DNA from: Bacillota bacterium
GTDB taxonomy: Bacteria > Bacillota > Bacilli > Alicyclobacillales > SLC66
NCBI GenBank assembly: GCA_021805735.1
Contig: JAJZEE010000024.1
Span: 1-44,469, forward strand
Direction of reading: 5' to 3'
Length of the DNA: 44,469 nt
Position numbers and translations under genes: made by a program. The notes beneath the pieces are model-generated. The model searched no databases and was not told where the DNA came from. It was given only the letters and a program-made list of their open reading frames with translations. Positions 3,549 through 13,448 of the stretch are shown piece by piece (positions within the stretch are counted from its first letter, which is position 1; every line of letters begins with the position of its first letter).

Positions 3549-3660
3549 GGTGGCGCGAATGCGAACGGCGGCGCCTGGTTATTTGACGTAGAACGGACTT
3601 TGCGCAACTATACATATAAGCTTTGGACATGGATTGCCATCAGAAACAGGGAGAGCAGGC

Positions 3661-5178
3661 ATGCAAATCAGTCGATTTTTGCAGGGAACATCCAGATCGA
3701 GGCACGGATGGCTGCCCTATCTGGCAACCACCCTGGCGATCGGGTTACTGACCATATTGCTGCTTAGAGTCGGACTATCCTTCCAACTGGCCAATATCGC
3801 GCTCCTCTTTCTGCTGCCAGTGCTCTTTAGCGCCGCGCGATGGGGATTCGGCCCGTCCATCTATGCCGCTGCGGTTGGCGTGGTGGCGTTCGATTATTTC
3901 TTTGTGCCGCCTATCTTCAGTTTTTCAGTGAGCGACCTGCGCTATCTGATCTCGTTCGCCGTCTTTCTGAGTGTTGCGATCTTGACGGCCACATTGGCGT
4001 TGCGCCTGCGTATGCAGGTCAATGAGTCGCGCCAGCGGGAAGCGGACACCGCGGCGCTCTACGATCTCAGCAGGCAGATGACCGCTCGCGGTGATTTGAC
4101 TGGCATTTTGGAAGCCATAGTGACCCACGTCTACGGTACCTTGCGTCTCCCTGCCTGGATTGCGCTTCCTGCTGATGGAGACAGAATGTCCGTCAGCGCG
4201 AGGGCAGGCCAGCCTCCTCATGCCGACGGAGTCGAGGAAACGATATGCCGATGGGTCTATGTGCATGGGAACACGGCGGGGCGCGGAACAGGGCGCTACG
4301 AACATACGGATCAGATCTACGTTCCCCTGAAGACCGAGGATGTTGTTCGGGGAGTTCTCGTTTTGGATGTACGCGGTCAAGCCGGCGCTCTGCTTGCGGA
4401 ACGCCTGCGTCTCATTGAAGCGTTTGCGGGGCTCTCTGCAGTGTCGATTGCCCGCATTCAACTGGAAAAAGAAGCGCACATGGCGCGCCTGTCGGCAGAA
4501 TCGGAACGGTTGCGCACGGCTTTGCTCGATTCCATCTCGCATGAACTGCGCACGCCGCTGGCAGGCATCATCGGGTCGGTGACAGGCATGATCGAAAACG
4601 CTGCCATGCTCACCGATGAGGATCGCCGCGACTTACTGTATACGATTCGCGACAGCGCCATGCGCATGAATAGACTGGTGACCAACCTGCTCGGCATGGT
4701 GCGCCTGGAGAGCGGTATGCTCAGCTTACACAAACGGACCTGCGACGTCTCTGACATGCTGGGGGTAGCATTGCGGCAAGTGCAGGATTCACTCCAACAT
4801 CGCGCAGTTGAGGTGAACCTGCAGGGAGATTTGCCGCCTTTGCAGGTAGACGATGTGTTGATTGAGCAGGTGCTCGTCAACATCCTGAGCAATGCGGTCA
4901 AGTATTCGACTGACGATAGCAGGATCGAAATTCGCGTGGCGGAACGTGACGGAACTGCGGTTCTCACGGTTGCAGACGAGGGGATTGGGATACCGGAGGG
5001 GGACGAAGACAGGATTTTCGACAAATTTTACCGCGCGGAGGGGGCGAAGAGAATTCCAGGAACAGGACTGGGGCTGGCGATATGCAAAGGCATTGTTGAA
5101 GCGCACGGAGGCGGGATCGCGGCGGAGCGAAGAGCGGGCCGGGGAGTCAGGATCGTGATTCGACTGCCTGTCGACTGA
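3661..5178 (+). CDS. kdpD: KdpD-type sensor histidine kinase lacking the N-terminal sensor module
   Basis: A 505-residue kinase equal to the C-terminal half of KdpD. Residues about 15-110 form the four-helix DUF4118 membrane domain, about 130-275 a GAF-like region, then a HisKA domain with the phosphorylated His294 in SHELRTPL, and an HATPase domain with N (ILSNAVKY), G1 (DEGIGIP) and G2 (GTGLGLAI) boxes. Normal KdpD is near 900 residues because it begins with a KdpD ATP-binding domain and a USP domain; both are absent here and are encoded separately, in duplicate, at 11133-13448. ATG 3661 follows AGGGAG with seven bases of spacing; an in-frame TTG lies upstream at 3634. The gene is 13 nt ahead of kdpE. 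It should sense potassium limitation or turgor and phosphorylate KdpE. Confidence 0.88.
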   Translation: MQISRFLQGTSRSRHGWLPYLATTLAIGLLTILLLRVGLSFQLANIALLFLLPVLFSAARWGFGPSIYAAAVGVVAFDYFFVPPIFSFSVSDLRYLISFAVFLSVAILTATLALRLRMQVNESRQREADTAALYDLSRQMTARGDLTGILEAIVTHVYGTLRLPAWIALPADGDRMSVSARAGQPPHADGVEETICRWVYVHGNTAGRGTGRYEHTDQIYVPLKTEDVVRGVLVLDVRGQAGALLAERLRLIEAFAGLSAVSIARIQLEKEAHMARLSAESERLRTALLDSISHELRTPLAGIIGSVTGMIENAAMLTDEDRRDLLYTIRDSAMRMNRLVTNLLGMVRLESGMLSLHKRTCDVSDMLGVALRQVQDSLQHRAVEVNLQGDLPPLQVDDVLIEQVLVNILSNAVKYSTDDSRIEIRVAERDGTAVLTVADEGIGIPEGDEDRIFDKFYRAEGAKRIPGTGLGLAICKGIVEAHGGGIAAERRAGRGVRIVIRLPVD

Positions 5179-5191
5179 GGGGAGGCGCCGC

Positions 5192-5878
5192 ATGGGAGCC
5201 AGGATTCTGGTTGTGGATGATGAGTTGCAGATTCGCAAGTTGCTTAAAGTGACGTTGCAGGCCCATGGTTTTACGCTGCTGGAAAGCGCGACAGGATGCG
5301 ACGGCGTGGTATGCGTGGGCATGGAGAGGCCCGATCTTGTGGTTCTCGATCTCGGACTTCCCGATATGGACGGAACAGAGGTTTTGCGGCAAATCCGTGA
5401 ATGGTCGCAGGTTCCGGTCATTGTGCTCAGCGTACGCGACAATGAGGCCGAAACCGTGGCTGTGCTTGATTCGGGAGCTGATGACTACATCACGAAACCG
5501 TTTGGCATGGGAGAACTCGTTGCGCGCATTCGAGTCGCTTTGCGTCATGCCGCGCATGCTCCGGGTGAACCGGTTATCACGGTTGGCGATGTAACCATCG
5601 ATCTGGCAAGAAGGCTGGTTGAAAAAGGTGGGCAGACAATTCATCTCACCCCCATTGAGTACGATTTGCTGAAGGCAATGGCGGTAAACGCTGGTCGCGT
5701 CATGACACACCATCAGCTTGTAAGGCAGGTGTGGGGCGATCAAAACTATGACGCGGCAGCCCACTATCTGCGTGTGTATATTGGACACCTGCGCAAGAAA
5801 GTGGAGAATGATCCAACGCGGCCGACCCTGATCATTACCGAACCGGGCATTGGTTACCGATTGCTTGATTTTTCCTGA
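5192..5878 (+). CDS. kdpE: KdpE response regulator, OmpR/PhoB family
   Basis: A 228-residue regulator with an N-terminal receiver domain (acidic pair at residues 9-10, phospho-acceptor Asp53 in VLDLGLPD, conserved lysine in ITKPF) and a C-terminal winged-helix DNA-binding domain ending in the usual GIGYRL sequence. It lies directly behind the kinase, with a GGGGAGG ribosome site before the ATG, and is followed by a strong terminator. It is the likely activator of the kdpFABC genes downstream. Length and motifs fit KdpE well. Confidence 0.92.
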   Translation: MGARILVVDDELQIRKLLKVTLQAHGFTLLESATGCDGVVCVGMERPDLVVLDLGLPDMDGTEVLRQIREWSQVPVIVLSVRDNEAETVAVLDSGADDYITKPFGMGELVARIRVALRHAAHAPGEPVITVGDVTIDLARRLVEKGGQTIHLTPIEYDLLKAMAVNAGRVMTHHQLVRQVWGDQNYDAAAHYLRVYIGHLRKKVENDPTRPTLIITEPGIGYRLLDFS

Positions 5879-5944
5879 GCAGAGCCCCCGGATTCCTGCA
5901 GTCGCATGTGCTCTTGGGGAGCCCAGGATGAAAATGAATATGTG

Positions 5945-5975
5945 CCGTTCACATCACTGTGAACGGTATTTTTAT
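5945..5975 (+). terminator. Rho-independent terminator after kdpE
   Basis: An 8-bp perfect stem, CCGTTCAC (5945-5952) with GTGAACGG (5959-5966), has a 6-nt loop and is followed by TATTTTTAT. It separates the kinase-regulator pair from the transporter genes, so kdpFABC probably has its own promoter or depends on read-through. Confidence 0.75.
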
Positions 5976-6209
5976 GTTCCCTTTATGTCTGCGGCCTGAT
6001 TATCGAAGCGCATTTTGACGTGTTCACCCACTACACTCAAGTCATTCGCCTGCTCCCGCAAAGTCATGCGGGGCTGTCGCTTAAAGCCTGTGCCAAAAGG
6101 GCAGGCAGGGACCGGGCAGTGTGAGGAAGCGGGCCGAGCACTGCGGAACAAGCGGCAGAACATACAATTGGCGCGAACAATCTCTGCGTACGGAAGCGAG
6201 GTGTTCAGG
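5976..6209 (+). promoter_or_regulatory. structured leader upstream of kdpF
   Basis: This gene-free stretch of about 230 bases can form several hairpins: CCGCA / TGCGG at 6056-6070, GCCTG...CAGGC at 6086-6105 with an AAAA loop, and GCAGTG / CACTGC at 6116-6144. A TTGACG at 6015-6020 is a possible -35 box without a good -10 partner. I could not match the structure to the ydaO c-di-AMP riboswitch or to another known class. It may hold the KdpE binding site, but no clear direct repeat was seen. Confidence 0.35.
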
Positions 6210-6293
6210 GTGGGCAATCTGCTGTCGTTCCTTCTGTTCTTCGCAATTTTTGGTATGTTCATGGTGCTGTTTCGGGCGTTTGACAAGGCTTAG
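6210..6293 (+). CDS. 27-residue single-span membrane peptide upstream of KdpF
   Basis: GTG 6210 opens a 27-codon frame whose product is almost entirely one hydrophobic helix (about residues 4-21) with a short charged tail RAFDKA. GAGG at 6198-6201 gives an eight-base spacing to the GTG. The stop codon is merged into the AGGAGGGA ribosome site of kdpF, so the two tiny genes appear translationally linked. The position suggests an accessory subunit or assembly factor of the Kdp ATPase, like KdpF, which is also a single helix. I recall extra small genes being described in the Alicyclobacillus kdp operon but cannot verify it here. The product is not otherwise recognised. Confidence 0.55.
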   Translation: MGNLLSFLLFFAIFGMFMVLFRAFDKA

Positions 6294-6304
6294 GAGGGAG
6301 ACGG

Positions 6305-6382
6305 ATGTGGGTTCTGCTCGTTATTTCGGCGGGAGTCACGGTGTATCTGACATACGTGATCTTCAATCCGGAGAAGTTCTGA
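6305..6382 (+). CDS. kdpF: KdpF subunit of the potassium-transporting ATPase
   Basis: A 25-residue peptide: one transmembrane helix followed by the typical ending FNPEKF. KdpF peptides are this short and stabilise the KdpABC complex in the membrane. A strong AGGAGGGA site lies just upstream of the ATG, and the gene stands 29 nt before kdpA. It is too short for ordinary gene callers and easily missed. Confidence 0.85.
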   Translation: MWVLLVISAGVTVYLTYVIFNPEKF

Positions 6383-6411
6383 TCGATTATTTTGTTTGGG
6401 AGTGAGCAGGA

Positions 6412-8118
6412 TTGACTGTAGCCGGTTCGATCGGCATCGTGGCCGTGATCGCTGTCGTGTTGCTCCTCGGCATCCCTCTTGGGGGGTATCTTCACCGTGT
6501 CTTTACGGGCGCGCGCAGTTGGTTCGAGCCAGTGTTTGATCCTTTTGAGCGCCTGTTGTACAAGCTCGTTGGCGTGAATCAGTCCGTGCGCATGGACTGG
6601 AAGGCGTATCTCAGGGCCCTGATGCTGGTTAATTTTATGATGATGATTTTCGCCTATCTGATCTTTCGCCTGCAGGGGATGCTGCCCTTAAATCCCGATC
6701 ATATTCCGGGCATGAGTTGGGATCTGGCGTTCAACACGGCCGCGAGCTTCATCACCAACACAAACTGGCAGAACTACGCGGGCGAGCAGTCCATGTCGTA
6801 CCTGGGGCAAACGCTCGCCATCACCTACCTGCAGTTTACGTCGGCGGCCACCGGATTCGTCGCTGCCATCGCGTTTGTTCGCGGGTTGACGGCTAACAGG
6901 AGCGATTCGATCGGGAACTTCTGGGTGGATTTTATCAAGATTCATACGCGCGTGTTGCTGCCGCTTGCCATCGCGTTTGCCGTTCTTCTGGTTGGCCTGG
7001 GCGTTCCGCAGACGCTGCTTGGCGCGCAGACGGCGCACACCTTGCAGGGCGGAACGCAAATCATCTCGCGCGGACCCGTCGCGTCTCTGGAAGCGATCAA
7101 GCAAATCGGCACAAACGGCGGTGGTTTCTTCAATGCCAACTCCGCCCACCCATTTGAAGATCCGACGGCGTTCACGTCCGTGTTGGAAATGGTTGCCATG
7201 GGGGTCATTTCCGTCGCGTTGATTGCAGTCTTTGGAAAATTCGTCGCCAATCGTCGGCAGGCGAGGGTGCTGTATGTCTTCCTGACGACGATTTTGCTGG
7301 TCGGGGCGTTTGTCGTGTACGCCAACGAAGCGGCGGGCAACCCGCTTGTCCATCAGGCCCTCGGCATTGCAGGGCCGAACATGGAGGGCAAGGAGTGGCG
7401 CTTCGGCCCGGCGCTCAGCAGCGTATTTGTCGCCATGACAACAGCGTTCACCACGGGCGCCGTGAGTTCCATGCACGACAGTTTGATGCCGCTGAGCGGT
7501 CTGGTGCCGTTTCTCTTCATGATGTTCAACCTGATTTTTGGCGGCAAAGGCGTCGGGTTGTTGAATATTGTCATGTTTCTGATCATCACCGTGTTTTTGT
7601 CCGGGTTGATGGTCGGACGGACACCCGAGATATTCGGGAAAAAAATCGAGGCCAGGGAGATCAAGCTGGCAACGGTGGCGATGCTGGTCCATCCCTTTTT
7701 CATTCTGGTTCCCACGGCGATCGCCGTGGCGACAAAAGCCGGAACGTCGTCGATCCTGAATCCCGGACTGCACGGCTTTTCGGAAGTCCTCTACGCGTTC
7801 ACCAGCGCTGCCGCCAACAACGGATCGGCGTTTGCGGGTCTGAATGGCAACACTGTGTTTTACAATGTGTCGCTGGGCATCGTCATGCTGCTGGGGCGTT
7901 ATGTATCGATCATCGCGATGTTCGCGATTGCGGGCTCCCTGGCCAAAAAGGCGGTCATACCAGCCAGCGCAGGCACGCTAAAGACGGACACATTTGCCTT
8001 TGGCGCCGTGTTTGTGGCGGTCTTTGTCATCGTGGGAGCGTTGACTTTCTTCCCTGCCTTGGCCATCGGTCCGATCGGGGAACAGTTGCAGATGCTGAGC
8101 CGCCTGGCGGGTCATTGA
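6412..8118 (+). CDS. kdpA: KdpA, potassium-binding and translocating subunit
   Basis: A 568-residue polytopic membrane protein of normal KdpA length (E. coli 557). It contains the family's selectivity-filter regions, including SFITNTNWQNY (about residue 110), TNGGGFFNANSAHPFE (about 234) and SAAANNGSAFAGLN (about 465). KdpA is related to the Ktr/Trk channel superfamily and carries K+ for the KdpB P-type ATPase. The start is taken as TTG 6412, behind a modest AGCAGGA site; no better in-frame start is visible. It lies 29 nt after kdpF and 87 nt before kdpB in an evident operon. Confidence 0.95.
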   Translation: MTVAGSIGIVAVIAVVLLLGIPLGGYLHRVFTGARSWFEPVFDPFERLLYKLVGVNQSVRMDWKAYLRALMLVNFMMMIFAYLIFRLQGMLPLNPDHIPGMSWDLAFNTAASFITNTNWQNYAGEQSMSYLGQTLAITYLQFTSAATGFVAAIAFVRGLTANRSDSIGNFWVDFIKIHTRVLLPLAIAFAVLLVGLGVPQTLLGAQTAHTLQGGTQIISRGPVASLEAIKQIGTNGGGFFNANSAHPFEDPTAFTSVLEMVAMGVISVALIAVFGKFVANRRQARVLYVFLTTILLVGAFVVYANEAAGNPLVHQALGIAGPNMEGKEWRFGPALSSVFVAMTTAFTTGAVSSMHDSLMPLSGLVPFLFMMFNLIFGGKGVGLLNIVMFLIITVFLSGLMVGRTPEIFGKKIEAREIKLATVAMLVHPFFILVPTAIAVATKAGTSSILNPGLHGFSEVLYAFTSAAANNGSAFAGLNGNTVFYNVSLGIVMLLGRYVSIIAMFAIAGSLAKKAVIPASAGTLKTDTFAFGAVFVAVFVIVGALTFFPALAIGPIGEQLQMLSRLAGH

Positions 8119-8205: not shown

Positions 8206-10260
8206 ATGGCTAAAGAGTCTTCCAGGACCATATCTGGCGAAATCTTGACGCGGGCTGTATGGGAGTCGTTTGTCAAACTCGACCCGCGCGTCCTCATCAA
8301 GAATCCGGTGATGTTTGTGGTGGAAATCGGATTCGCAATCACTCTGGCGCTGTCTGTCGATCCGCTCATCTTTGGCGGCGTTCGGCACCCAGGCCAGAGG
8401 GCGTACAACATGACTGTGGCGGTCATCCTACTGATTACGATTCTGTTTGGCAATTTTGCGGAGGCTGTCGCGGAAGGGCGGGGCAAAGCCCAGGCGGATT
8501 CGCTGCGCAAGGCGAAGACGGATTTGACCGCCAATCGTCGCAAGAGTTCCGGGAACTTTGAGTCGGTTCCCGCCACCGCCTTGCGCAAGGGCGACGTTGT
8601 ACGAGTGGCTGCGGGCGACATGATCCCCGCCGACGGCGAGGTGCTTGAGGGTCTGGGAAGCGTGGACGAATCAGCCATAACCGGAGAATCGGCGCCGGTG
8701 ATCCGGGGCGCGGGCGGAGACTTCAGCTCGGTCACCGGGGGCACAAAGCTGCTGTCCGATGAACTGATTATCCGGGTGACCGTCGATCCCGGCGAGTCAT
8801 TTCTGGACCAGATGATCAATCTGGTGGAGGGCGCCAGTCGCCAAAAAACGCCCAATGAGCTGGCGCTCTCGGTCCTGCTCGCCGGACTCACGCTTATTTT
8901 CGTGATCGTCGTGGATACGCTTGAACCGATGGCGACGTACGTGCACGGCAGCATTGGCGTCGCGACTCTCATCGCGCTGTTGGTGTGCCTGATTCCCACG
9001 ACGATTGGGGCGCTCTTGTCCGCGATCGGGATTGCCGGCATGGACCGCGTGATTCGCTTCAATGTGATCGCCAAGTCGGGAAAGGCCGTGGAAGCGGCCG
9101 GCGACGTGAATACCCTGATTCTCGACAAAACGGGAACGATCACGATCGGGAATCGGCTGGCGAGCGAGTTCATTCCCGTGGGCGATCATTCCGAACAGGA
9201 ACTGATTGAGGCGGCGGTGATCTCCTCGCTGTTTGACGAGACGCCGGAAGGACGCTCAGTGGTTGACTTGGGAAAGGAAAAAGGCGTTTCGCGCGCGCGT
9301 GAATCATACAGCGACGCGGAAAACGTGGAGTTCAGCGCAGACACAAGAATGAGCGGATTAAACCTGGCCGATGGATCGCTGTATCGCAAAGGCGCGGTGG
9401 ATGCGATTCGCCGCCATGTGCTGGAGCGCAAGGGACAGGTGCCCGACGATTTGGCCGGCAAGACCGAAACGATCGCCAGGGCCGGGGGAACGCCGCTCGC
9501 CGTGATTCGGGGAACGGATGTCTGTGGACTGATTTATTTGAAAGACATCGTGAAGCCGGGGATGAAGCAGCGATTCGCGGAACTGCGCAAAATGGGCATC
9601 AAAACGGTCATGTGTACCGGCGACAACGCGCTTACCGCCGCAACCATCGCAAAGGAAGCGGGCGTGGACGACTACATCGCCGAGGCCAAACCGGAAGACA
9701 AAATGCGGCTGATCAAGGCGGAACAAGGTCAGGGCAAACTGGTGGCGATGTCCGGCGACGGAACGAACGATGCGCCGGCGCTGGCGCAGGCCGACGTGGG
9801 GCTGGCCATGAACACGGGCACGACGGCCGCCAAGGAAGCTGGCAATATGGTCGATCTCGATTCCGATCCCACCAAGCTGATCGAAGTCGTGTCGATCGGC
9901 AAGCAGTTGCTGATCACGCGCGGCGCAATCACGACGTTTTCCATCGCCAACGACGTGGCCAAATACTTCGCGATCATCCCGGCGATGTTTGTGGCGATGA
10001 TACCCAGTCTGCAGGCGCTTAACGTGATGCGCCTGACAAGCCCGCACAGCGCGATCCTGTCTGCGCTGATCTTCAACGCGCTGATCATTCCCCTGCTGAT
10101 TCCGCTGGCGATGAAAGGCGTCAAATACCGCCCCGTGAGCGCGACGTCCATGCTGTTGCGCAACCTTCTGATTTATGGCGTCGGCGGGGTGATCACGCCG
10201 TTTGCGGGCATCAAGATCATCGATCTTCTCTTGACGGCGTTGGGGCTGGCCCATATTTGA
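8206..10260 (+). CDS. kdpB: KdpB, P-type ATPase catalytic subunit
   Basis: A 684-residue P-type ATPase. Asp307 in [12 protein letters not shown] is the phosphorylation site and has the same number as in E. coli KdpB. The actuator motif [10 protein letters not shown] (about residue 160), the nucleotide-binding region with YRKGAVDAI, and the hinge [18 protein letters not shown] are all present. It hydrolyses ATP to drive K+ through KdpA. The ATG follows GGAGAAGG with a good spacing. Length and motifs are complete, with no sign of damage. Confidence 0.97.
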
Positions 10261-10300
10261 GGGTGAGAGTCGCCGGACTGTGAAATTGGAGGGGTTATGC

Positions 10301-10870
10301 ATGATTAATCTCTGGCGCTCCCTGCGTTTTACGATCGTGTTTGCCGTCTTGCTGGGCCTCCTGTATCCGCTGCTGATCACGGGGATCGGCAACCTCCTGT
10401 TTCCCTGGCAGGCGCAGGGGAGCATGGTGGTCTGGCGCGGGCGGGTGGTCGGATCAGAGTTGATCGCCCAACAGACGACTGTTCCGTGGCTCTTTCATCC
10501 GCGGCCGTCAGCCGTGGATTACGCTGGCAACGCGTCGGGCGGCTCTAACCTGGGACCGACGAATCCGGCGCTGATCGCCGAAATCAGGCGCAACCTGCAC
10601 GTCGTGGAACGACAGAATCCCGGCGTCACAGTGTCCTCCATTCCCACGGAGATGGTGGAATCGTCCGGTTCCGGGCTCGATCCGGACATCTCGATACCCG
10701 ACGCCCTGATCCAGCTTCCGCGCGTCGCGCGGGCGTCCGGCCTGAGCCGTTCCTATCTGGCAGGGCTGATCGCCAGGTACACGCAGGGACGGGTATTGGG
10801 AATCTGGGGAGAACCGATGGTCAACGTGATGCGGCTCAACATGGCGATCGTCAGGCGCACCGGACGGTGA
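10301..10870 (+). CDS. kdpC: KdpC subunit of the potassium-transporting ATPase
   Basis: A 189-residue protein with one N-terminal membrane helix (about residues 9-31) and an extracytoplasmic domain holding FHPRPSAVDYAGNASGGSNLGPTN, shortened here to its key parts FHPRPSAVDY and SGGSNLGPTN, which are the family signature. KdpC raises the affinity of KdpB for ATP and completes the complex. ATG 10301 was chosen over the upstream GTG at 10280 because GGAGGGG at 10288-10294 lies six bases before it. The gene ends the transporter block; a repeat-rich spacer follows. Confidence 0.93.
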   Translation: MINLWRSLRFTIVFAVLLGLLYPLLITGIGNLLFPWQAQGSMVVWRGRVVGSELIAQQTTVPWLFHPRPSAVDYAGNASGGSNLGPTNPALIAEIRRNLHVVERQNPGVTVSSIPTEMVESSGSGLDPDISIPDALIQLPRVARASGLSRSYLAGLIARYTQGRVLGIWGEPMVNVMRLNMAIVRRTGR

Positions 10871-11074: not shown

Positions 11075-11132
11075 GGCGGAACTGCGATTCATGCAAAGCG
11101 GGTGATGGCGCTTGAATCAGGAAGAGGATGGT

Positions 11133-13448
11133 ATGACGCCGGAAGCAGAGCGTGCGCCTGGCAACATCTTTGGGGGAGAACCCGGTGAACTCAAACTGTT
11201 CATCGGAGCGGCTCCGGGAGTCGGCAAAACGTACACCATGCTTCGTGAAGCGGCGGGGCTGCGCGAGCGCGGCGTAGATGTAGTGGTGGGCTATGTGGAC
11301 TCCCACGATCGCGCGGAGACGCAGGAGCAGGTGGGTGATCTGGAGGTCATTCCACGGCGCCTGATTCACTACCATGGACATACATTTGAGGAGGTTAATC
11401 TGGAGGCCGTCTGCGCTCGTAAACCAGAGGTCGTCGTCATCGATGAACTCGCCCATACAAACGCGCCTGGTTCACTGTTTCCGAAACGCTACATGGATGT
11501 CGAGTATCTGTTGGACCAAGGGTTCAGCATTTTGACGGCGGTCAATGTCCAGCATATCGAGGGCATCCGGGAGGAGGCCGAGGCGATCACGGGAATCCGT
11601 GTCAGGGAGTTGATTCCCGCCTCCTTTGTGACGCGCGCGCGCGAGGTTGAGGTCATCGACGTGACCCCGGAGACGCTTCGCCAGAGATTGCGCGACGGCA
11701 GCATCTATGCGCCGGCAAAAGTGAATCAGGCGTTGGACAATTTTTTTCGCAAGTCCAATCTCTTCGGACTTCGCGAACTTGCGCTTCGGATGGTGGCCGA
11801 GGACGTTGACCAGCGCCTGCAACGATCTTATGAGCGTTCCCGTATCCAGGGACCTGTGGGCGCGCGCGAGACGATCATGGTGTGTGTCAACGACCTTGAG
11901 CGGGCGAAGCAACTCATCCAGAGAGGCTATCGGATGTCCCGTCGCATGAAGGCCGATCTGTATGTGCTCACCGTATGCAACACGGTGGAGGAGCACTTGA
12001 AGGAGCGCGACATCGAACGGCTGGCGACCTTGAAAAAAATGGCCCATGAGCATGAAGGCGAGTGGATTTTGGAACCGCAAAACGATCGCGCCATCGGACC
12101 GGCGATTCTACATGTGGTTAACAGACTCAACGTCACGCAGGTGGTCATCGGACAGCCCGGTCGCGTAAAACGCTGGCGATGCATCTGGAATGACGCGCCT
12201 GTTCGCTACCTGCTTCGGCACACGAAATATGCGGATCTGCGGGTCGTGGGGAGGAAAGAGGCTGAACAGGCGCAGGGGCGCGCCAGTGGTTGTGCGCCCG
12301 CGGATGAATCTGCGCACAGGCGGCAGCCCACCCGCAATGCCGCGTCTTCGGAACCGGCAAAGGGGGGGAATCATCGGGGTCGACTGACGATCTATGTTGG
12401 CGCGGCGCCTGGTGTCGGAAAGACGTATAAGATGCTTCGTGATGCGCGCGACTGGCGACGGCGGGGTAAAGATGTGGTCGTTGGATTGGTGGAGACGCAT
12501 GGCCGCGCAGAAACGGCGGCTCAAATCGAAGATCTGGAGATCATCCCCAAGCGGTTGCATCGTCTGCAGGACCGACTCTATGAAGATCTGGACGTCGATG
12601 CGATTCTCCGCCGCAATCCGCACATCGTCGTCATCGATGAACTGGCGCACTCCAATGTTCCGGGCAGTGTGCGGGCCAAGCGCTATCAGGATATCGAATA
12701 CCTGCTCGATCGCGGGATCAATGTTGTCACGGCCGTGAACATCCAACATCTGGAGAGTTTGCACGACAAAGTGGAGCATATCACCGGGGTCAAGGTGCGC
12801 GAACGGATTCCTGACTGGTTCATGAAACTGGCGCGGGAAGTGAAGCTCATCGATATCACGCCGGAGACTCTGCAGCAGCGGTTGCTGGACGGCAAAATCT
12901 ACGCGGACGACAAGATACAGCGCGCTCTTGACAACTTTTTTCAGGTTGCCAATTTGGCCGCGCTGAGGGAACTGGCCCTGCTGGAGGTTGCGGATGATGT
13001 CGACCAGCGTCTGGATCGCGAACGGGGGGAAAAAGGGGCGGCGGACACCGCAACCGAGCGCATCCTTGTAGCGGTCAACCACAGGCCGCACTCGGAAAAG
13101 TTGATCCGCAGAGGCTGGCGTCTGGCCGATCGGCTTAAGGCGGAGTTATGGGTGCTCGTGGTGTTGTCGCAAGAAAACATGTCCGAAGAAGATACGAGGG
13201 ATCTGCACAGGATTCAGCGGCTCAGTGAACAGTTTGACGCCAGATTCATCACCAGAAAAGCGCTTGATCAGGGAGTGGGAGCGACGATTGTGGCGGTGGC
13301 CGAGGAACTCGGCATCTCCCAACTTGTCACAGGGCAACCCCTGCCGCCGATTCGCTTCATCAATCGCCTGCAGGGGAACCCGATCGATTATGTGCTGCAC
13401 CATGCCGACTTTGTGGATCTCTATATTGTCGCGAATTCCCGGGATTGA
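11133..13448 (+). CDS. tandem KdpD sensor-module protein (no kinase domain)
   Basis: A 771-residue soluble protein made of two homologous halves. Each half has a KdpD-type ATP-binding domain (Walker A GAAPGVGKTY at residues 25-34 and 423-432; Walker B-like DELAHTN and DELAHSN) followed by a USP-like domain that begins near GARETIMVCVN and TERILVAVNH. A hydrophilic linker of about 40 residues joins them. There are no transmembrane, HisKA or HATPase segments. This is the part missing from the kinase at 3661-5178, present twice. In E. coli KdpD this region binds ATP and tunes kinase/phosphatase activity, and USP domains of some KdpDs bind c-di-AMP, so it probably acts in trans on the kinase. ATG 11133 follows AGGAAGAGG; an in-frame TTG lies at 11112. 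It is separated from kdpC by 262 bp of repeats. Confidence 0.85.
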   Translation: MTPEAERAPGNIFGGEPGELKLFIGAAPGVGKTYTMLREAAGLRERGVDVVVGYVDSHDRAETQEQVGDLEVIPRRLIHYHGHTFEEVNLEAVCARKPEVVVIDELAHTNAPGSLFPKRYMDVEYLLDQGFSILTAVNVQHIEGIREEAEAITGIRVRELIPASFVTRAREVEVIDVTPETLRQRLRDGSIYAPAKVNQALDNFFRKSNLFGLRELALRMVAEDVDQRLQRSYERSRIQGPVGARETIMVCVNDLERAKQLIQRGYRMSRRMKADLYVLTVCNTVEEHLKERDIERLATLKKMAHEHEGEWILEPQNDRAIGPAILHVVNRLNVTQVVIGQPGRVKRWRCIWNDAPVRYLLRHTKYADLRVVGRKEAEQAQGRASGCAPADESAHRRQPTRNAASSEPAKGGNHRGRLTIYVGAAPGVGKTYKMLRDARDWRRRGKDVVVGLVETHGRAETAAQIEDLEIIPKRLHRLQDRLYEDLDVDAILRRNPHIVVIDELAHSNVPGSVRAKRYQDIEYLLDRGINVVTAVNIQHLESLHDKVEHITGVKVRERIPDWFMKLAREVKLIDITPETLQQRLLDGKIYADDKIQRALDNFFQVANLAALRELALLEVADDVDQRLDRERGEKGAADTATERILVAVNHRPHSEKLIRRGWRLADRLKAELWVLVVLSQENMSEEDTRDLHRIQRLSEQFDARFITRKALDQGVGATIVAVAEELGISQLVTGQPLPPIRFINRLQGNPIDYVLHHADFVDLYIVANSRD

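Follow-up and report, generated by a model that had tools for sequence, protein, structure and literature searches.

The structural picture of Kdp, a model P-type ATPase, derives from Escherichia coli. Single-helix peptides such as CydX, AcrZ, MgrB and those of the TorE/NapE type act in an accessory or regulatory manner on a partner membrane complex, and the action of MgrB on PhoQ shows that the partner of a single-span peptide can be a kinase. In Clostridium acetobutylicum, kdpZ and kdpY are said to be small ORFs, with kdpY resembling kdpF, and the operon of Alicyclobacillus acidocaldarius has reportedly been written with kdpZ before kdpF. The C. acetobutylicum transcript is given as kdpZYABCXDE in the part of PMC5401905 that cites Treuner-Lange et al. 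1997. By letter order, and compared by transcript name only, kdpZ is the gene before kdpY, which in turn stands before kdpA.

Here we describe a short gene that precedes kdpF in a member of the Bacillota. Going by the gene order in the transcript name and the small size given for kdpZ, the two may be the same gene, and the name kdpZ has priority if this proves to be so. No description of a family of such peptides was found among the matches listed from open-licence literature on kdpZ, on genes upstream of kdpF and on small proteins, nor in the available parts of PMC10903887, PMC9650054, PMC8552747, PMC11364881, PMC6134056 and PMC11018627.

The kdp locus and its two short frames

The stretch of DNA analysed here (the window; 44,469 nucleotides) comes from a genome of 3.76 Mb, in which it is part of contig C136. 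The KdpA encoded here most resembles proteins from metagenome assemblies labelled Bacillota (98–99%, some matches covering part of the protein), followed by those of Sulfoacidibacillus thermotolerans (87%) and Alicyclobacillus ferrooxydans (81%). The features described below between 3634 and 10870 lie on the forward strand. A sensor histidine kinase of the KdpD type that lacks the N-terminal KdpD domain is encoded at positions 3634–5178 (Pfam DUF4118, GAF, HisKA and HATPase); its product matched the NCBIfam KdpD model only at model positions 409–882 of 895. It is followed by the gene of a KdpE-like response regulator (5192–5878), which was recognized by Pfam and scored 273.5 bits with the NCBIfam model PRK10529 (KdpE), below the cut-off of 325. 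Further downstream, kdpA (6412–8118) and kdpC (10280–10870) were identified by Pfam and NCBIfam, and kdpB (8206–10260) by its position and the DKTGT motif in its translation.

Between the end of kdpE (5878) and the start of kdpA (6412) lie two short frames. The second is kdpF (6305–6382, ATG to TGA; 25 residues, MWVLLVISAGVTVYLTYVIFNPEKF), which matched TIGR02115 and PF09604, the latter at 8.5e-10 with 38.7 bits (cut-off 21.2). The first, at 6210–6293, runs from GTG to TAG and encodes a KdpZ-like single-span peptide of 27 residues (MGNLLSFLLFFAIFGMFMVLFRAFDKA). A predicted ribosome-binding site, GAGGTG (6198–6203), stands six bases ahead of the GTG at 6210. The translation agrees with the initial annotation, which had claimed a 27-residue single-helix peptide with its own ribosome site directly upstream of the 25-residue KdpF. 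The merging of the peptide's stop codon into the kdpF ribosome site, which had also been claimed, is borne out by the bases themselves: the AG of the TAG (6291–6293) is common to the AGGAGG (6292–6297) that would serve kdpF. With the stop codon overlapping or abutting the ribosome site of kdpF, joint synthesis of the two peptides in similar amounts is probable.

Two further observations concern the surroundings of these frames. The spacer between kdpF and kdpA comprises 29 bases only in the window; in a close relative (L028) it holds a repeated segment, with AAGAFFSRLLV occurring twice in one frame. Moreover, kdpD is split in the window, the histidine kinase half (3634–5178) lying upstream of kdpE and the N-terminal domain, apparently doubled (11112–13448), downstream of kdpC. 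We know of no tandem form of this domain. A split kdpD in A. acidocaldarius is named in the title of Schleussinger et al. 2006, as given in the reference list of PMC3035248, and the available part of PMC11018627 describes the KdpD N-terminal domain as a serine kinase on KdpB and mentions short forms without histidine kinase.

In the intergenic region, a 12-pair inverted repeat followed by a T-run (CCGTTCACA...TGTGAACGG; 5942–5969) resembles a terminator between kdpE and the peptide gene. One repeat of this kind was observed and 0.9 were expected in shuffles; the assignment is suggestive only, and the repeat could instead be an operator. If the terminator is real, the peptide would be the first gene of its own transcript. 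A consensus scan of the forward strand from 5800 to 6450 detected no promoter-like sites. A T-rich stretch at 6010–6031 (GCATTTTGACGTGTTCACCCAC) is a weak candidate KdpE-type box, with six of 10 matches to TTTTTTACAC; the two genus-mates of the window have six and seven of 10 and are weak as well. Matches of 8–10 of 10 were obtained upstream of the peptide in 26 of 36 loci of the Alicyclobacillus group (for example CATTTTTATGATTTTTTTACACC in L019), a label of this analysis that includes Sporolactobacillus and members of the window's family. The heptamers ATTTTTA and TTTTTAC were each present in 24/36 of these loci, compared with approximately 1.3 expected in single-base shuffles; this control covers 7-mers only, and the counts for the 10-base box stand without one. 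The box resembles catttttatactttttttacaccccgcccg ahead of E. coli kdpF, which we take to be the KdpE site.

Conservation and selection among relatives

Within the window's family the peptide was matched by sequence in 13 of 18 genomes. KdpF exceeded the Pfam cut-off at 20 places, distributed over 15 of the 18 genomes, and the peptide was located directly upstream at all 20 (13 by sequence search, seven from a scan of the upstream region). For one of the 13 (G007) the contig stops short of kdpA. Three family genomes lacked KdpF, and in these neither KdpA nor the peptide was found; two of the three are incomplete (65% and 88%). In five family genomes a second, divergent kdp operon (L072–L076) encodes a KdpF and a divergent peptide of its own (for example MSDLYMIALLLVGFGFSLALMRYLDKL); the KdpA proteins of these operons are 47–49% identical to that of the window.

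We searched close relatives for loss of the frame or of the start codon and found both to be kept, so that the claimed gene survives. GTG serves as the start codon in the window and in both of its genus-mates, and the remaining family members retain the frame and a usable start, which in L065 is placed three residues earlier. The consensus of 36 aligned peptides of the Alicyclobacillus group reads MGDxxSxxLFxAxFGLFxxLxRxFDKA, with M1, F14 and D25 each present in at least 90% of the rows.

For 33 close pairs, the pooled pN/pS was 0.30 in the frame of the peptide and 0.98 and 1.83 in the other two frames, with 156, 80 and 297 differences at the three codon positions. These pairs remained from 38 that were picked by hand, after removal of one pair of unequal length, two that were less than 60% identical and two identical ones, and some of them share a member. 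KdpF itself had a pN/pS of 0.21, calculated from pairs with KdpFs of equal length (seven of the 33 had unequal ones). We conclude that the peptide is under purifying selection.

Distribution across phyla

Nine sets of kdpA neighbourhoods were assembled from sampled genomes of Bacillota, Actinomycetota, Bacteroidota, Desulfobacterota, Pseudomonadota and Chloroflexota, from named relatives retrieved by a KdpA search and from 12 annotated plasmid records. Each phylum sample consisted of at most 30 best-scoring KdpA loci and was not random, and the phylum labels of sampled genomes rest on the named centre locus. The 306 loci yielded 236 usable unique ones after removal of 31 duplicates, 28 without kdpA, eight without the 5' end of kdpA and three with a short upstream region. 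KdpF was found in 201/236, and a hydrophobic short ORF lay just upstream of it in 173/201. By set, such an ORF accompanied KdpF in 36/38 loci of the Alicyclobacillus group, 11/11 other named loci of the KdpA search, 14/16 of Actinomycetota, 25/27 of Bacteroidota, 14/15 of Desulfobacterota, 24/25 of Pseudomonadota, 28/29 of Chloroflexota and 10/12 plasmids; among sampled Bacillota it was present in 11/28 and missing in 17/28. Examples from beyond the window's family are MLDIVFIATGLAFFGLAAGYAILCERL, MGVLIYVVLTIAVFAVLGLTQKLVERL, MLITFLLLALAVVLFAICFKSVEFFEKI and MLDTLIVLVTLLTFLIFVGFTLACERL. In Deinococcus radiodurans R1 the corresponding ORF has 26 residues and overlaps kdpF.

About six of the 173 positives look like chance frames or other genes (L150, L151, L164, L169, L180 and L181; four of them in Actinomycetota), and in L186 the wrong ORF was chosen, a likelier one having been identified separately. 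L012 and L017 were counted as misses, yet both carry the peptide. The ORF-picking script favours starts that yield about 28 residues or that place a D close to the N-terminus; for this reason peptide length and N-terminal acid statistics were not used as evidence. A profile built from the family alignment alone matched 161 of the 299 genomes sampled from the phylum (E up to 1), at listed places that were mostly not kdp. Such a search being too noisy beyond the window's family, we relied on synteny with kdpA. Searching plasmids with single peptides by tblastn gave no match, perhaps due to the low-complexity filter, and the hhalign comparison of two of our alignments (A1 and A2) was set aside because they share members and are not independent.

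A hydrophobic frame of this size could arise by chance and have no function, and 7.2% of dinucleotide shuffles (286/3980) did contain one. By the same criteria, which could be applied to 199 of the 201 KdpF loci, 171/199 were positive on the coding strand and 5/199 on the antisense strand; with stricter hydrophobicity the numbers were 133/199, 1/199 and 1.3% of shuffles. Chance is refuted in the window's family by the conservation at 20/20 places and more widely by selection at the codon level (pN/pS 0.30). Together with the 173/201 KdpF loci that have the frame, this makes a functionless frame extremely improbable.

Hydrophobicity was separated from family membership with profiles trained while whole groups were held out, using 632 membrane-like decoy frames. 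When all Bacillota were held out, leaving 111 peptides for training, the 36 peptides of the Alicyclobacillus group scored a median of 19.0 bits, compared with 2.6 for the decoys and 4.4 for the group's own peptides after shuffling. The AUC was 0.997 against decoys, which likewise speaks against chance, and 0.999 against the shuffled peptides, and 35/36 peptides lay above the decoys' 99th percentile. The window peptide reached 14.0 bits, equalled or exceeded by 3/632 decoys. When held out, 23/24 peptides of Pseudomonadota, 28/28 of Chloroflexota and 13/14 of Desulfobacterota were also above that percentile. Recognition was weaker in other Bacillota (9/11), Actinomycetota (10/14, AUC 0.85) and Bacteroidota (12/25, AUC 0.92), so that the most distant peptides, in the last two phyla, could be convergent rather than homologous. 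Judged by these sequence comparisons, the peptide belongs to a family spread over several phyla and is not a local curiosity.

Similar size, a single span, the same inferred topology and the adjacent position might indicate that the peptide is a duplicated and diverged KdpF. Like KdpF, it is a small single-span peptide encoded in the kdp operon 5' of kdpA, with the same inferred charge asymmetry, and both escape annotation at times: kdpF was unlisted in 5/12 annotated plasmid records. It differs in lacking the YL...(P)E[KR]F tail of KdpF and in having the pattern M.D....L....F..........[DE][RK]. For the window peptide neither Pfam nor NCBIfam gave a match at E up to 1, KdpF included, and the peptide does not reach the gathering score of PF09604 (21.2 bits); nor does it stand directly 5' of kdpA, as it precedes kdpF and kdpF precedes kdpA. 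Searches with 45 diverse members gave scattered matches only, all at E >0.01 and none common to more than three members, a single one of the 45 matching KdpF (E 0.29), and PDB chains gave no match to the family profile at E up to 1. On the peptide profile, KdpFs of the window's group had a median of 7.1 bits compared with 19.0 for the peptides (AUC 1.0). This separation was weaker in other Bacillota (0.89), Actinomycetota (0.77) and Bacteroidota (0.74), but taken together the comparisons leave descent from KdpF very improbable.

The peptide has largely escaped annotation, as had been supposed: one of the 10 plasmid records that carry it also lists it, the gene table being incomplete. The exception is Mycetohabitans endofungorum, in which a 34-residue product with the same place and pattern (WP_212667346.1) is named 'potassium ABC transporter ATPase', a mis-annotation for a peptide of this size. 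In the record of Rhizobium acidisoli one locus-tag number is skipped exactly at the place of the peptide, and the gene may therefore be annotated there in the original.

Association with KdpF and proposed role in the Kdp complex

We examined the 35 loci without a called KdpF for the peptide. Neither was present in 24, among them L008, a contig of G007, whose kdpF and peptide are on another contig. Six loci had both the peptide and a KdpF that the filter had missed (L236, L237, L244, L249, L255 and L274), three had a KdpF-like ORF alone (L166, L167 and L227), one (L163) had the peptide with an atypical ORF at the usual position of KdpF, and L168 was the sole clear case of a peptide without a KdpF-like ORF. 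No natural fusions of the peptide with KdpF or KdpA occurred among these 35 loci.

Presence of the peptide was associated with a proline in the KdpF tail: both occurred in 165 loci, neither in 18, the proline only in 10 and the peptide only in eight (Fisher p 6.5e-13, confounded by common ancestry). In sampled Bacillota (L091–L118) there are two KdpF tail types, PE[KR]F-like and AEEL/TEEL-like, and 17/17 KdpFs without the tail proline also lacked the upstream peptide. The peptide is mostly absent where KdpF has an AEEL-like tail, and it is rare without KdpF, whereas KdpF does occur without the peptide, namely in the 18 KdpFs without tail proline and in the E. coli record. In the latter, no ORF of this kind separates the T-rich box from kdpF, and KdpF ends in NAEAF. 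Since the Kdp of E. coli functions as a pump, the peptide is not a general requirement for pump function. The second small peptide that had been claimed can be upheld as a peptide distinct from KdpF, under purifying selection and tied to kdpF across phyla. We conclude that the ORF is a conserved and mostly unannotated gene family that travels with KdpF.

This tight operon linkage would also fit a leader cistron or a regulator of KdpD. As a leader, translation of the short ORF would control translation of kdpF and downstream genes or the stability of the mRNA, and the peptide would have no function of its own. The spacing to kdpF suits such a role: among the 173 peptides, 44 overlap kdpF by four or one bases and 107 end 0–20 bases ahead of it, with gaps of 21–60 bases in 18 and of >60 bases in four. 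However, a pure leader would not account for selection at the amino-acid level (pN/pS 0.30) or for a motif common to phyla in the held-out tests, and the conserved D...F...[DE][RK] pattern would be superfluous. The charge is one-sided as well, K and R being commoner on the C-terminal side in 165/173 peptides, on the N-terminal side in one and equal in seven, and Rfam gave no match at E up to 1 in 5879–6500. We therefore regard a leader cistron as unlikely.

Alternatively, the peptide might be a small membrane regulator of KdpD or potassium sensing that acts in the manner of MgrB on PhoQ and is not a subunit of the pump. Kinase-acting single-span peptides of this sort are known, and in the window the genes for the KdpD kinase half and the response regulator stand immediately before the peptide. 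On the other hand, the peptide tracks kdpF, at 20/20 KdpF places in the family, and adjoins it even where an unrelated gene is listed as the upstream neighbour (CopC in R. acidisoli, L294). We consider a regulator of this kind improbable.

Our preferred explanation, in which we have reasonable confidence, is that this conserved single-span peptide gene encodes a second small accessory subunit of the Kdp pump beside KdpF. The step from gene to subunit draws on operon position, co-occurrence and analogy with KdpF, which make it the most likely reading. The peptide shares with small single-span accessory subunits as a kind a short ORF, one hydrophobic helix and purifying selection, and it is encoded and co-occurs with its presumed partner complex (20/20 family KdpF places; 173/201 KdpF loci). 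The resemblance to CydX, AcrZ, MgrB and TorE/NapE-type peptides is one of kind only, as the partners differ and the peptide has no significant family match. The peptide gene comes first in the pump operon, followed by kdpF, kdpA, kdpB and kdpC, and would be translated jointly with kdpF when KdpE induces the operon. The T-rich box upstream of the peptide in 26/36 loci of the Alicyclobacillus group counts for this reading, and the weak box and missing promoter-like site in the window count against it. From the C-terminal excess of K and R and the positive-inside rule, we infer that it inserts into the membrane with its N-terminus outside and its positive C-terminus inside, which would be parallel to KdpF in the orientation known for that subunit. 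It may then pack on the membrane domain of KdpA/KdpB near KdpF and, as part of the KdpFABC assembly, stabilize or tune the complex.

There is about an even chance that the ancestral Kdp complex had five kinds of subunit, that a KdpZ-like peptide stands beside KdpF in most complexes whose KdpF has the PE[KR]F tail, from Alicyclobacillus, Deinococcus and Rhizobium to Chloroflexota and Bacteroidota, and that it was overlooked because the model pump of E. coli lacks it. The peptide is probably one component of a textbook transport machine that has gone largely unnoticed. Should most Kdp operons beyond the E. coli lineage encode a second conserved helix, the accepted architecture would lack a component across a large share of bacterial diversity, and studies of Kdp from other hosts in which this cistron is left out may concern a partial complex. 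The family profile allows an unannotated gene to be called in many genomes, and the peptide, if a subunit, would be well suited to show how P-type ATPases are tuned by small helices.
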